Source: Candidatus Altimarinota bacterium
GTDB taxonomy: Bacteria; Patescibacteriota; Gracilibacteria; BD1-5; UBA2023
Assembly (NCBI GenBank): GCA_028685185.1
Contig: JAQUEK010000007.1
Location: forward strand, 1-32,812
Length of the DNA stretch: 32,812 bases
Direction of reading: 5' to 3'
The translations under genes and the position numbers were made by a program. The notes under the pieces are model-generated. The model saw only the letters and a program-made list of their open reading frames with translations, did no database searches and was not told where the DNA came from. Positions 16,032 to 25,944 of the stretch are shown here, piece after piece. Every line of letters starts with the position of its first letter. Position 1 is the stretch's first letter.

Positions 16032-17867
16032 ATGATGAATAAGACCGAAACCAAAAAAACCGAAACGCTGACTCTGAGGATTAGCTGAGATTCATGAGAC
16101 TGAATCCAGATAATCTGAAATCTCCTGACACAGACTATCGCTTCAGAAAAATATAGCATAAGTACTATTCCTGATTATCCATCTGAAATAAGGGCTCCTA
16201 TATGAACAATCGAATGAGTGAGTAGCTACCAGATATCATTCTGAAATGATGAGATGATTCCACCTAGCGATACCGTAGATATTATAATGGCAATGAACCC
16301 TGCTTCTTTAAAGGTGAATTCAAAATTCCTCAAAAAAGATACCATTATCATAGTGAATTCTGATTCTTTCACTCAAGAATGATTATCCAAAGCATGATAT
16401 ATAGAAAACCCATTGGAAGATTGAAGCTTAAGCGAATATAAGATAATAACTGTCGATATAAGCAAAAGAACATTGAAATCATTGGAATCATCAGATATTA
16501 GCAGTTCCCAGAAAATGAAATGCAGGAATTTTTATGTTCTATGAATATTGCACTGACTCTTATGATTTGACCTTGAAATACCGGATTCATGGATAGGGAA
16601 AAAATTCATGAAAGATAATATCATGATTGAATCGAACAGGAGGGTTTTATATGAAGGCAAGGAACTCACGAAAGATAGCTATTTTTTTTCTATCAGATAT
16701 GAGGTTTCCAGAAACAATAAGATGAAATGAAAATATAGGATATTGAATTGAAATGAGGCAATCGCTTATTGACTCATAGCCTCTTCTAAATTATCAGGAA
16801 AAAATCTTTATTACGGTTCATATCCGATAACACCTGCAAGCGATATTCTCCATACCCTTCTTAAATATAGATCTGAAGGCATTACTGTTTTTCAAGCTGA
16901 AGATGAGATTGCTGCTATAGGTTGAGCTATCTGAGCATCATTTGCCTGATCGATCGGTGCAACAGGTACTAGCTGACCCTGATTCTCACTGAAAACCGAA
17001 GCGATAAATCTTGCTGTGATGGCAGAATTGCCGCTTATAATAGTCGATGTCCAAAGATGATGACCATCTACATGAATGCCGACCAAAACTGAACAATGAG
17101 ATCTGTTGCAGGCAATGTTCTGAAGACACTGAGAATCTCCATTGGTTGTAATTGCAGTGTCGGATCTTAATGATTGCTATCATATGACTGTGGAAGCTTC
17201 CAGAATTTCCATGAAATATATGGTTCCTGTGATAATATTATCCGATTCATATCTTGCAAACAATTCAAGCATGCTCGATATAAATATGGCATGCGGTATA
17301 AATGATTTCGAAATAAGAGAATTACCTGAAAAAAATGAGTATTTCCCATATCTGAGAGATGACAAAACCCTTTCAAGGCCTTGGGCATACCCATGATTAG
17401 CAGGATATGAACATAGGATATGAGGCCTTGAGAAAGATTATCATACAGGCAAGGTCAGCTATGATCCAGATAATCATGAACTTATGACGAAAATAAGAGC
17501 CACAAAGATCGAAAAGGTGAAAGATGAAATTCCGAAAACTAAGATAAACTGAAATGATAGCTGAGATCTGCTGGTCGTATGATGGTGATCCACATATAAT
17601 TCAATCTCGAAGGCAGTAAATGACGCCAGAAATGGATGATTTCAAGTCTCATCAATCCACTTGAAATTCATAAGTCCACTCCCTTCCGATCTGGAAGTGA
17701 TATTCAAGAGGTTTAAAAAGATACTTTTACCTGAAGAGAATATGTGACAGCTTAAATTCATATTGGAATCCAAATTTGATATTGAGATGATTGGTTTGAA
17801 TAAGTTGAAATGACAACCGATTTATCCATGAGAGATACTATCCAAAATAAGAGAAATAATTGATTAA
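16032..17867 (+). CDS. korA: 2-oxoacid:ferredoxin oxidoreductase, fused gamma-alpha subunit
   Basis: 611 residues. The N-terminal gamma domain (about 1-190) starts LTLRISGDSGDGIQIIGNLL and includes [13 protein letters not shown]. The alpha domain begins near residue 255 ([17 protein letters not shown]) and contains [20 protein letters not shown], then [20 protein letters not shown] and QRGGPSTGMPTKTEQGD. This is the KorA architecture of two-subunit enzymes, which lack the delta ferredoxin domain. With KorB it oxidises a 2-oxoacid to acyl-CoA and CO2 and reduces ferredoxin. 2-oxoglutarate is typical, but branched or aromatic 2-oxoacids are possible. More than 45 glycines are UGA. KorB follows after 13 bases. 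Confidence 0.92.
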
Positions 17868-17880
17868 ATATAATAGAAAG

Positions 17881-18864
17881 ATGCTTACAAGAAAAGATTT
17901 CATTTCTGATATACCAGTAAAATGGTGCGCTGGCTGCTGAAATTTCATAATCCTGTCACAGCTGCAGAATACATTCGCGAACATATGAATCCCGAAAGAG
18001 AATATAGTCGTAGTATCTGGAATATGATGCGCATGAAGATTGCCATATTATATGGATACCTACTGATTCCATACAATCCACTGAAGAGCTCCGACTATTG
18101 CCACATGAATAAAGCTGACCAAACCTGAATTACAGACTTGGGTACTGACAGGTGATTGAGACGGGTTATCTATAGGATGAAATCATCTTTATCATGCAAT
18201 GAGGAAAAACATCTGACTCAAGATAGTGATGTTGAATAACCAGATATATGCACTCACAAAATGACAGGTATCTCCTACCTCCCAAGTATGATCAGTCACA
18301 AAAACCACACCGCTAGGTTCTATAGATAACCCTATTAATCCGATCAAATTCGCGATATGAGCAGAATGTGCCTTTGTCGCAAGATCCATAGATACTGAAA
18401 TATCTCTGACTCAGGAAATATTAGACAGGGCTGTGAAATCCGATTCAACCGTTTTCATTGAAATACTGCAGAAATGTGTAACATTTGAAGTCAGCGGAGT
18501 GAATCAAATAAGAGACAGAGAATTGAAGGAAGAGCTTATATTGAGGATAAGAAATTGAGAGCCACTGATATATTGAAAAAACAAGGATAAATGAATTGTA
18601 ATCGAAAACTTCAAGCCTAAAATCATCAGCTTTAACCCAGAAAACATACCTGAAAACATCGTGATATATGATGAAACAAATGATGAACTTGCTTATATTA
18701 TAAGCAATCTGAATTACCCGGAATTCCCTATCCCTGTCTGAATATTCAAAACTTCAAACAGAACATCATATGAGAAAAACTACAATGATGAGCTTAAAAG
18801 AAATAATATAAAGGATAAAAGCCTAAAAGAAATACTTTATGATTATGAAGTTATTGATATATAG
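17881..18864 (+). CDS. korB: 2-oxoacid:ferredoxin oxidoreductase, beta subunit
   Basis: 327 residues. The KorB N-terminal Cys motif (VKWCAGCGNF) and a further Cys in SGIGCAGR bind the 4Fe-4S cluster. The thiamine diphosphate motif GDGDGLSIGGNHLYHAMRKN is at about residues 89-110, followed by NNQIYALTKGQVSPTS. The reading frame is the clearest test of the code: the middle Gly of GDGDG and the Gly of CAGCG are UGA. It is the electron-output subunit, and the two-cluster ferredoxin at 28848 is a candidate acceptor. It stops five bases from the convergent Ldh2-type gene. Confidence 0.93.
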
Positions 18865-18868
18865 AATA

Positions 18869-19915
18869 TTACCAACTAGTATTCACTCAATGTTCCTCTC
18901 AAATCCCATCCAAAATATCAAGGAATTCCCTATCGAAAGGTATTCATTCTGAAGATCTCTTCTTGTGTTCAAGATATTCTTTCTCTCAATGTACGAAAAC
19001 CTTAGAATTATTCTTGTGCGATCAGTGCAACATTCACATGAGAAGATTCATTCTTATCTTAAATTCCTCGATATTCATAAATTTCGTTATATCTATAGCC
19101 ATAAAAAAATGTCCGACTTTTGGTTCACCTTTGGAATATACTCATTTTCAGAACTCTGATCAGGAAAGGACTCAACATAATATGTCAACCAAAGTTGCAA
19201 ATCAATATCATTTATATGTTCACATCGGCAGAATTCATCAGAGTCTGACAGTCTCAAGGGAATTTAAGACAGCATGAGGGTCAAGGCAATTGTTTCAATC
19301 GCTGTCCACTGCCCATCAACTCTTCAATTTCTTGCCTAATTTTGCAGCAACCTCAATTTTTCATCTGGGAACAATGCTTGTAGCGAAATCCATCACCCAA
19401 GGATATTCAATCCCAGTAGGCACGGCGACTGAAATAGGGTTTGTTCATAGGACAGCTTCTTTTCAAAAAGTCGGAACTACAAGCGGTGCAGTGTTTGTCA
19501 TGGAAATTCAGATCATATCCTCTTTAAGTGCCATCATAGAATAATATCATGCTATTCCATAATGATTGCTATTTTTCACTGTAGTTATGGCAACTCAATA
19601 TTTCTTTGCTATCCTAATAGTTTCTTGCATTCCGATATATCAAGCCTTCTGTCCTAAACAATGGTTTCAATCTATAATGGTTGTTGCTCATTCCTGAGAT
19701 ATTATCTTAGGGCAAGATAATATATTTATATCGCCTTTTTTTATTGCTTTGATATAGCGATTGAATCTGTTTATCCCATGTGATGTTATTCATCTGAGAT
19801 CTGATTCAACAAGCACATCGGTGACAAGTTTCGAATCTTCATGGTTAAGTCCGATCTTTCCGAAAACCCTTTCGCAGAAATCCTTTATTTTTTCAGATTG
19901 TATCTTTTTCTTCAT
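18869..19915 (-). CDS. Ldh2/MDH2-type NAD(P)-dependent 2-hydroxyacid dehydrogenase
   Basis: 348 residues of the malate/L-lactate dehydrogenase YlbC-YbiC family, unrelated to classical LDH. Family marks are DLRGITSHGINRF with the conserved SHG near residue 46, VKNSNHYGIAGYYSMMA near 115, APLVVPTFGKEAVLGTNPIS near 145, and a late YKGYGFATLVDILCGVLSG. It reversibly reduces a 2-oxoacid with NAD(P)H. It is downstream of the aminotransferase by 31 bases on the same strand, so the pair may send an amino acid to its 2-hydroxyacid and regenerate NAD. About 25 UGA glycines. Confidence 0.9.
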
Positions 19916-19946: not shown

Positions 19947-21236
19947 TTAATATTCCTGACAAGCTTCATATATATTATCGAAAAGCTTTTTTATCGATTC
20001 CAAAGGTACGCTTGAAAAAGCGATCCGCAATACATCATTTCAGATAGAAATAACTCAAGTGTCATATCTTTCAAGAAGGATTTTTCTTATTTTTTCAGCA
20101 TTTCAACCCTTAAGTCGTATACTCATGAAATATCAGGAATTGAAAGGAAATGAAGTGAAAAATGCAGAATATCTGCTATTTTCCAAGACTTCCTTAACTT
20201 TTTCATATCTGCTTTTTAGTAAATTGAAATGTTCTTTCTTCTCTTCTGGATATTTTGGATTCTTATATGTTTTCATAAGCATTTCTTGAGCGATCCTATT
20301 GGTATTTGAGATATTGGATCTTATGATTCATAATGTTTTCTGTTCAAGCACATCAATCGATTCGCTCGCTATCTTTCATCAGAATGTAATAAATCAGACA
20401 CGTAATCACCACGCATAATCTTCCTTTGATATTCAATCTATTTTTATTGGAAGAATATTCTTATGTATATCATTAAGATACGCGAAAACAGATTCCTTGC
20501 ATGTGTCTTTTTCATAAAATAATCCAAAATATGCATCATCGATCATTACAATAATATTTCTTCATGAATCAGCTAACTTCAAGAGAATTTCCTTCATTTC
20601 AAGTATTTCATGAACACTTGGGCTGTATCATGTTGGATTATTCGGGAAATTCAGAAGTAAAACAACTTTGTTTGACTCTGTATTCAATATCGCTTCCTTG
20701 AAGCCTTCAAGATTAAAGCTTAAACCGTCAAACATGTTAAAAGTACTTATCTTGGAGGAAAAATTAGTTTCAAACATAAGCTTGTAATTTCCCCAGAAAA
20801 AATCTGGCATAATAATAGTATCCTCTTTATCCAGGAATAATGATCCGACAATACTTAAAGCATGCGTCAGTCCCGATGTCACTATAGGAAAACCCAAATT
20901 TCACTTCAAGCTAGGATTTTTCATTCAGATCTGCTGTTTCCAATGATTCCTAAGCTCTTTCAATCCTCAGCTTGGAGCATATGAAAAGCTATCATTTGTA
21001 AGAGAATCTGAAATAGATTCAGACATGCTTTTTAGTATATATGTACTTTTATTCTCATCAAGAGCAACTCAGACTGTAGCGTTTATGGATTTCCCATTTG
21101 CCTCTTCAGTTTGTTTTATGATTCATTCCTTTGGAAAATAGAAAGATTTACCTCTTTCTGAAAGCATGTCGAAAATCTGGGAATCCTTTAATATAAGAAT
21201 CTCATTTAATTTTTCTGCTTGTGCCGTATATTTCAT
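19947..21236 (-). CDS. PLP-dependent class I/II aminotransferase
   Basis: 429 residues of fold type I. Seen: GFPIVTSGLTHALSIVGSLF (cofactor phosphate loop), LLLNFPNNPTGYSPS near residue 205 (substrate-binding Asn), MIDDAYFGLF near 242, and the PLP lysine in GISKEDYAWGLRVGF near residue 271. The start at 21236 (MKYTAQAEKL) was chosen; a longer frame reaches back through the terminator of the leader and is not a protein. The amino-acid substrate cannot be read from the sequence, but the leader peptide points to Asn/Asp or Phe. It is the first gene of an operon with the Ldh2-type dehydrogenase and is controlled by an attenuator. Confidence 0.9.
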
Positions 21237-21249
21237 AATATTAATTGTT

Positions 21250-21318
21250 AAAAAAAATCTCTTCCAGATTTTTCCGAAGAGAGTTGAATTTAATTTTTTA
21301 CACTGAAAATTCTCTCTT
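21250..21318 (-). promoter_or_regulatory. transcription attenuator before the aminotransferase
   Basis: Two exclusive RNA structures lie on the minus strand. Terminator: TCTCTTC (21282-21276) pairs with GAAGAGA (21264-21258), followed by eight U (21257-21250). Antiterminator: AAGAGAG (21318-21312) pairs with CTCTCTT (21283-21277), which takes up the terminator's 5' arm. The antiterminator arm begins three bases after the stop of the leader peptide. A ribosome stalled in the leader would leave it free, whereas a ribosome at the stop codon would cover it. Confidence 0.7.
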
Positions 21319-21321
21319 GGT

Positions 21322-21372
21322 TTAGAAAAGATTATTATCATTATTATTTGTATCAAAAAAGAATTTTCTCAT
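21322..21372 (-). CDS. leader peptide of the aminotransferase operon
   Basis: 16 codons from ATG at 21372: MRKFFFDTNNNDNNLF, then TAA. It starts about 20 bases after the predicted transcription start. Three successive Phe and five Asn with one Asp in six codons are typical of attenuation leaders, in which scarce charged tRNA for the repeated residue stalls the ribosome. It has no Shine-Dalgarno, like the native genes. It ends directly before the antiterminator arm. Confidence 0.6.
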   Translation of the reverse strand: MRKFFFDTNNNDNNLF

Positions 21373-21399
21373 AGAAGTTTATTTTAGATCACACTTCGC

Positions 21400-21427
21400 T
21401 TTATATCAATTTTTGTTTCCCTGTCAA
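21400..21427 (-). promoter_or_regulatory. promoter of the aminotransferase operon
   Basis: Minus strand: perfect TTGACA (21427-21422), 16 bases, TATAAA (21405-21400). It places the start near 21393 and leaves a leader of about 155 bases before the aminotransferase. Confidence 0.7.
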
Positions 21428-21445
21428 ATTTATAATTAAATATTT

Positions 21446-21685
21446 TTAAGCTTTCTTGAAGAATTCTGTCCTTAATACCATTTTTCAAGATTCTATCTCC
21501 TCAACATTATCAGTAAGCCTGATGTTTTTGAATTTGTCTCATCTTTTTATATCCTGACCTCACTTTACCTTAAGTTCCTTTGTAGCAATTACCGTATCTC
21601 AATCATTAAGTATGGTTCAATTGCAATCTTTTACAATAAGAGCTGAATTATCAGTCTCATCTCACCAGTTGTCATTATAGTTCAT
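21446..21685 (-). CDS. PhnA-domain protein, C-terminal domain only
   Basis: 79 residues matching the C-terminal domain of PhnA/YjdM: LIVKDCNGTILNDGDTVIA, then KELKVKGGQDIKRGDKFKNI and LRTEFFKKA. The usual N-terminal zinc ribbon with four Cys is missing; only one Cys remains. PhnA was named from the phosphonate cluster, but its role is unknown and it is not phosphonoacetate hydrolase. It has about seven UGA glycines, including those in DCNG and VKGG. It ends just upstream of the aminotransferase promoter. Confidence 0.8.
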
Positions 21686-24369: not shown

Positions 24370-25608
24370 TTACCTGAGTTCATATCAAAGGTCATTCTGA
24401 AGTTTTTCCCTAATCTCAAAATACATTTTATTTATTTCATCATTGGTCAATGTCCTTTCTATCGACCTGAAAACCATTTTCAGCGATAGAGACTTGTTTT
24501 TTGGTGTAAATTTAGTATCGTTCTCATAGATATCGATAATCTTTACCTCTTCAATAAGATCTCATCATACATCCCTAATTATTCATGTTATTGCAAAAAA
24601 GTCTGACTCCGTATCTTTTGTCAGCTCCAATTCTCAAGATTTCTTTTCTTCTTCAATATCTTTTTTGAATTTCTCTTTAGGAACAACCATTGAAATATCC
24701 TTGTATACAGGGGGAAAAGAACTTACTTCCTTATATGTCTCTAGATTATCCCATTGTTTGGTTATCCTAGAATCATTGCTCCAGAATATCCTTATGTCAG
24801 GAATCTGCTTCAATGCCATTACAAGCCTTTCTATTCAAAATCAGAATGCCCATCAATTGTATTTTTCCGAATCCAATCATAATTTTTCAAGAACATCAGG
24901 ATGAACAACTCATGCTCAAGTCACTTCAAGCCATTTTCATTTGTACATGACCTCAATCTCAAGACTATCGGTCGTATATGGAAATGAATCCTCATTGAAC
25001 CTATATTCTATATCATCTCAGAACAATGCCTTTATAGTATTTCATAGAACTTCTTTGAGCGTATCCTGATTTATTATCTCCTTTTCCTTGGATGTAATCC
25101 TGAGTCAATCGATCTGATGGAAACATTCATGATGTGTCTTATCGAGCTCATCGACCCTATACACCTTTCACCAGCTTAAAGCCTTAACTTCTCAATCTTT
25201 CTCAAGTTTTTCTATTCATCCTCATTTTACAAGATAATGATACCACATTACAGAAGTATGAGGCCTTAATAATATGCTATTTTTCTTATCTTCATTTTTC
25301 TGCACGAAATAGCTGTCGCTAGGTCTTCTTGCTACGTGATTTTCAGGAAAATTAAAAAGGTCAAATGTTTCGAATTCAGCAACGATTTCAGGAACCTCTA
25401 TCTTGTCAAAAGATTCGTAAAAAGGTGAACCGATGATATTCTCTATAAGCATATTTATAGGATGTCCTTTTACCTTTGTCAGATTTTGCATGGCATGAAC
25501 CCTAAGTATCCTTGAAAAATAAGCCTTTTCTGTTTCATTGAGATCTTCATTTTCAATCTTATCCCTAACAAAATCCAGCCAAATCTTATCATTTTCCAAT
25601 AAATCCAT
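24370..25608 (-). CDS. single-chain phenylalanyl-tRNA synthetase (catalytic + FDX-ACB)
   Basis: 412 residues. Class II motif 2 is near residues 149-166 (VYRVDELDKTHHECFHQ), followed by FGDDIEYRFNEDSFPYT, the substrate region WLEVTGAGVVHPDVL, and motif 3 FGFGIERL near 255. From about residue 298 comes a ferredoxin-fold anticodon-binding domain: FPPVYKDISMVVP, IIRDVGGDLIEEVKIIDIY and KMVFRSIERTLTNDEIN. In ordinary bacteria this domain is at the end of PheT and the enzyme is an alpha2-beta2 tetramer. Catalytic plus FDX-ACB in about 410 residues is the layout of mitochondrial monomeric PheRS. No pheT is in the window. About 15 UGA glycines, including one in the TGAG active-site loop. Divergent from glyS. 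Confidence 0.88.
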
Positions 25609-25702: not shown

Positions 25703-25729
25703 TTGACATAACAAAAAATCATCTATAAT
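25703..25729 (+). promoter_or_regulatory. promoter of the T-box/glyS transcript
   Basis: Perfect TTGACA (25703-25708) and TATAAT (25724-25729) separated by 15 bases, so the transcript should start near 25736. Confidence 0.7.
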
Positions 25730-25735
25730 ATACAC

Positions 25736-25889
25736 AAGCGAAAAAGAGGGCCTGAAAAAAGGAATACTTGGAAAATATCCCTAAGGTCACCTCAAATAGC
25801 TAAAGTGTCTGGTGCCATAAGGCAGTAGAAACTTGGGTGGAACCGTCCGATATTGGACCCCAAGACTGGAATTGATTCAGTCTTTTTTT
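25736..25889 (+). promoter_or_regulatory. T-box riboswitch, glycyl type
   Basis: The antiterminator is complete: CTTGGG (25832-25837), T-box bulge TGGAACC (25838-25844), GTCC/GGAC inner helix, CCCAAG (25859-25864). The terminator AAGACTG / CAGTCTT with seven U after it (25862-25889) shares AAG with the antiterminator. The variable T-box base is A, which pairs with discriminator U73 as found in bacterial tRNA-Gly. Stem I is short (25746-25793, GAGG/CCTC base), and a hairpin at 25809-25828 may be stem III. A candidate specifier GGU (25785-25787) lies on the 3' side of stem I; this assignment is tentative. Uncharged tRNA-Gly should turn glyS on. Confidence 0.85.
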
Positions 25890-25944
25890 GTTTTTAATGA
25901 TCAATTCCCGTACTTTTCATTTTTATTTTTTAACCAACATTATT

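Follow-up and report, generated by a model that had tools for sequence, protein, structure and literature searches.

Ribosome-mediated transcription attenuation is established for the trp, his, leu, thr, ilv and pheA operons of enterobacteria (PMC1183508). The parts of attenuators that sense the signal are described as diverse and fast to evolve (PMC2965389). Gene regulation in Patescibacteria (CPR) has been little studied; in line with the original prediction, which knew of no attenuator of this kind in such a bacterium, none was found described for Gracilibacteria in the open papers searched, most subscription journals lying outside the search. The window analyzed here, a stretch of 32,812 nucleotides, comes from a 1.17-Mb genome, in which it is part of contig C5. 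Its genes are open only with UGA as a glycine codon (code 25), which points to the UGA=Gly lineages of Patescibacteria; UGA is among the commonest codons, at 52 per 1000. Ahead of an aminotransferase gene on the minus strand the window carries what is probably a ribosome-mediated transcription attenuator of the trp/pheA type, as judged from a single genome and from modelled folding.

The near-consensus minus-strand promoter of the original prediction was found as TTGACA (21427-21422) and TATAAA (21405-21400), separated by a 16-nt spacer and matching 11 of the 12 consensus positions (21400-21427); the motif scan gave no other match of at least 11/12 within the window. Transcription is predicted to start at about 21392-21395. 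By itself, the motif is weak evidence, since 33 motifs of at least 11/12 occur in 108 kb of noncoding strand, or about one per 3.3 kb. The leader ORF, MRKFFFDTNNNDNNLF, runs on the minus strand from the ATG at 21372 to the TAA at 21322 and has the 16 codons that had been described. It holds no internal TGA, and hence reads the same under code 25. It also lacks a Shine-Dalgarno sequence, which is normal in this genome, since an SD-like motif is present in only 19 of 288 genes. The genome sample used for comparison consists of about 400 kb of stretches, 432 kb in all, from the 1.17-Mb genome.

Folding of the predicted transcript with alternative structures, proposed at the outset as a check, showed four arms, all on the minus strand, and three pairings, 1:2, 2:3 and 3:4. 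Arm 1 (21354-21368) lies within the leader ORF, spanning codons 2-7 and with them all three Phe codons, and its pairing with arm 2 (21368-21354 with 21319-21305) gives a 15-bp helix, the strongest in the leader. Arm 2 (21305-21320) begins 1-2 nt past the leader stop and has either arm 1 or arm 3 as partner, while arm 3 (21273-21291) pairs either with arm 2, as antiterminator, or with arm 4, as terminator. Arm 4 (21268-21258) and the tract of eight U (T at 21257-21250) together occupy 21250-21268 and form with arm 3 an intrinsic terminator, whose stem is modest and bulged (-8.6 to -9.4 kcal/mol) and whose end lies 14 nt ahead of the aminotransferase ATG (21236). The minimum free energy structure of the whole leader combines 1:2 and 3:4, whereas a fold begun at the leader stop codon has the pairing 2:3. 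The arm sequences AAGAGAG, CTCTCTT and GAAGAGA are all present, and arm 3 is common to 2:3 and 3:4, which are mutually exclusive. The original prediction had already placed an antiterminator arm just past the stop, a competing arm and a terminator with eight U before the ATG, with two pairings that exclude each other, all of which was seen; it gave just 2:3 and 3:4, and the 1:2 helix is an addition of the present analysis. Among the features of trp/phe/his-type attenuators are a 1:2 helix whose first arm takes in control codons, and an antiterminator 2:3 exclusive with a U-tract terminator 3:4; both are present here. The sequence and its computed folds show the promoter motif, the ORF, the four arms and their exclusive pairings.

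To compute the effect of translation, the leader codons were set one after another in the A site of a ribosome footprint, the covered bases were kept unpaired, and the partition function was taken as far as the last base of the U tract; this is a folding model at equilibrium, not a calibrated classifier. The modelled probability of the terminator is 0.79 without a ribosome, falls to 0.08-0.10 with the ribosome at codons 2-6 and to 0.02-0.09 at codons 7-10, rises to 0.38 at codon 11, and is 0.78-0.81 from codon 12 to the stop. Ribosome position therefore alters terminator formation in the computation, from about 0.8 to 0.02-0.1, and footprint size has little effect on this switch, whose amplitude was reached by 1 of 1000 terminator-keeping shuffles. 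The same calculation for pheL of E. coli MG1655 gave 0.97, about 0.1 and 0.97. E. coli trpL and hisL are flat in the model and pheM nearly so, the terminator winning there at equilibrium; presumably kinetics decide in those leaders. Since these known leaders miss the switch, the method can confirm an attenuator but cannot exclude one. The four-arm layout, the position of the stop next to arm 2, the presence of control-type codons within arm 1 and the modelled dependence on codon position together support the attenuator that had been proposed.

The arrangement was compared with chance by keeping the terminator and shuffling all upstream sequence with dinucleotides preserved (n = 2000 for pairing energies). 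The energy of 1:2, -16.0 kcal/mol, was reached by 0.15% of the shuffles and that of 2:3, -11.7 kcal/mol, by 2.5%, whereas none of the 2000 reached both jointly. Total folding energy is ordinary (z -0.71); what is unusual is the specific arrangement. These figures bear on the view that there is no regulation here at all, and that the terminator belongs to the upstream YjdM-like gene (or to a short RNA gene) and stands beside an unrelated promoter, with pairings due to chance. The YjdM-like gene is indeed co-directional and ends at 21446, terminators are found near gene starts at several genes here, and comparable promoter motifs are as frequent as given above. However, the terminator sits 3' of the promoter, with 14 nt between it and the start codon, and the shuffles rarely if ever reproduce the joint pairing (0/2000) or the switch (1/1000), so that we regard this view as unlikely.

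When an alternative-pairing score was applied to 65 gene-upstream terminators from the 432 kb, solely the T-box of glyS did better on both pairings; being itself an attenuator, it is an unplanned positive control for the score. A scan of 205 terminators in the same 432 kb, forming 215 terminator/small-ORF pairs, ranked the leader first. The second-ranked attenuator-like candidate, MFGDNLTVKKSIFS, on the minus strand of L051 (16164-16307), combines a weak terminator (-4.5 kcal/mol) with an irregular curve.

The small ORF might still be accidental, and the terminator conditional in another way, run by a protein, a small RNA or a ligand. This AT-rich genome abounds in short ORFs, the noncoding part of the sample (54 kb) holding 486 of 10-25 aa. 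Yet only two of these 486 contain FFF, one contains NNN and none has two different amino-acid runs; the leader ORF carries both FFF and NNN. Arm 1 falls within this ORF, whose stop lies directly against arm 2, and an Rfam search of the leader matched no family. We consider an accidental ORF quite improbable.

In the proposed attenuator, transcription would start near 21393 and a ribosome would begin the 16-codon leader. With Phe-tRNA (possibly also Asn- or Asp-tRNA) charged, the ribosome would reach the stop codon and cover arm 2, allowing the 3:4 terminator to form and transcription to end 14 nt before the aminotransferase start. A ribosome stalled on codons 2-10 would instead cover arm 1, leaving arms 2 and 3 to pair, so that no terminator would form and the aminotransferase-dehydrogenase genes would be transcribed. 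If the leader is not translated, the 1:2 helix would form and the terminator would win (superattenuation). We infer that the leader is transcribed and translated and that Phe is sensed, Phe as the main signal being more likely than Asn/Asp or a general slowing.

It is possible, though it seems the lesser chance, that the attenuator stands but answers to limitation of Asn/Asp, to general translation slowing or to a ribosome-acting antibiotic rather than to Phe. The model predicts that a stall at any of codons 2-10, D7 and N9-N10 among them, leads to antitermination, and aspartate figures in the enzyme-family name (2x5f); on the other hand, all three Phe codons lie within arm 1, as in E. coli pheL, and N13-N14 fall outside the modelled responsive stretch. 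Rather doubtful, but conceivable, is a two-amino-acid attenuator, in which stalls at Phe (codons 4-6) and at Asp/Asn (codons 7-10) would both release the terminator; if true, a reduced-genome bacterium of the UGA=Gly lineage would use one leader to read the product (Phe) as well as the amino-donor side (Asp/Asn) of an Asp/Phe aminotransferase.

Concerning the genes under this putative Phe control, the first (19947-21236, minus strand) encodes a class I aminotransferase of 429 aa with 17 UGA=Gly codons, assigned to NCBIfam PRK08637 (NF006388, 517 bits, cut-off 301). It matches PDB entry 2x5f with an E value of 1.9e-100, and its depositors call that protein an aspartate/tyrosine/phenylalanine aminotransferase, which is a name and not an assay; with this name the Phe codons of the leader would make sense. 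Under code 25 no stop interrupts the frame as far as 21356, which would permit an upstream start at the in-frame ATG 21341 and make the region coding, but 2x5f (430 aa) aligns residues 7-426 onto 7-426 and the alignments of most homologues begin at residues 1-7, so that such a start is highly improbable. As the aminotransferase frame is open through the leader (21237-21356, minus strand), automated annotation may make leader and gene a single ORF.

The second gene of the putative operon (18869-19915, minus strand), 31 bp further on the same strand, encodes a malate/L-lactate dehydrogenase-family (Ldh_2) protein (PF02615, 390 bits); among the homologue loci compared, the pair was seen in this genome only. 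A plausible but unproven role would be to transaminate phenylpyruvate or related 2-oxo acids under Phe shortage, yielding Phe. Prephenate dehydratase is present in the genome (G000:C4:144944-145753) and widespread in its order of reduced genomes (45 of 77), and no Phe leader was found upstream of the prephenate dehydratase genes of the order. Chorismate synthase was not detected in the window's genome, which makes de novo Phe synthesis doubtful. Convergent with the operon are genes for a 2-oxoacid:acceptor oxidoreductase alpha subunit and a TPP-binding beta subunit (16032-18864, plus strand), possibly an amino-acid fermentation module. These neighbours could allow a catabolic role for the operon, although induction by starvation would be odd for catabolism.

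A search for homologues with a single protein against GTDB contigs found none, and a class search and a profile scan then gave 27 and 80, respectively. The leader is absent upstream of all of these, 27 at class level and 80 from GTDB (about 107), all of them at most 52% identical, and leader DNA searched against the family gave short AT-rich matches only. Conservation of the leader before orthologous aminotransferases, which the original prediction proposed to check, was thus not seen in any homologue examined, and there is no covariation. Relatives without the leader had been named as evidence against an attenuator, and in form they exist; however, since these homologues are distant and stand in other gene contexts, and since the sensing parts of attenuators evolve fast, we read their lack of a leader as the absence of a comparative test and not as a refutation. 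Apart from one at 30% identity, the aminotransferase showed no strong homologue elsewhere in the order. Homologues at 41-52% identity have a patchy distribution that takes in Patescibacteria, DPANN archaea, Bacteroidota, Fibrobacterota and others, which suggests horizontal acquisition of the aminotransferase. If the proposed attenuator is real, a switch on a seemingly acquired gene whose homologues have no counterpart would mean that leaders of this sort emerge de novo in reduced genomes, and that these organisms are able to sense a shortage of amino acids. In two Fibrobacterota homologues (L091 and L092) the 5' region holds promoter-like motifs with strong terminators behind them and no evident leader ORF; these may be independent attenuators of the aminotransferase family.

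Elsewhere in the window, a T-box leader (25713-25890, plus strand) precedes the gene for glycyl-tRNA synthetase (start about 25945), with an Rfam score of 25.2 of 93 bits, far under the cut-off. Matches occur in 12 other genomes of the order (L068-L079), with GlyRS downstream in 11 of the 12, and the core GGGUGGAACCG is invariant among them. The long Stem I is replaced by a short hairpin whose loop carries a Gly codon, mostly GGA but GGC in L078 and L079. GGA is rare among the Gly codons here, UGA being the main one, and with a GGA specifier the tRNA sensed would be tRNA-Gly(UCC) rather than the one that reads UGA. The open literature searched gave no paper on T-boxes in this group; this short-stem form is apparently unreported and possibly more novel than the leader attenuator. 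Adjoining glyS is a PheS-like protein with a PheT-like C-terminal stretch (24370-25608, minus strand), which scores 233 bits with the NCBIfam 'PheS-related mystery ligase SrmL' (cut-off 300) and 199 bits with pheS_mito; another PheS paralogue lies at G000:C1:105251, in addition to the PheS on G000:C6, which scores above the family cut-off.

Compared with these T-boxes (RF00230), the leader of the aminotransferase would share the control of an intrinsic terminator by amino-acid starvation, but T-boxes sense uncharged tRNA directly, whereas the leader has no UGGN box (UGGNACC) and no RF00230 match. The leader of E. coli pheST (pheM) likewise has a short Phe-containing leader peptide and a terminator; it controls a tRNA synthetase, and almost no equilibrium switch appears in the model. 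The full four-arm layout is that of the E. coli trp and pheA leaders. Among the closest known systems is pheL, with a Phe-rich leader peptide in arm 1, the pairings 1:2, 2:3 and 3:4, a terminator directly before the gene and a nearly identical codon-position curve in the model. The two have no sequence relation; pheL has seven Phe codons, against three consecutive ones here with an additional Asn/Asp run, its downstream gene encodes chorismate mutase/prephenate dehydratase rather than an aminotransferase, and the present leader lacks a Shine-Dalgarno sequence and has the weaker terminator. By all computable features, the element probably belongs to the known class of attenuators, and what is new would be its host lineage, its leader and its target.
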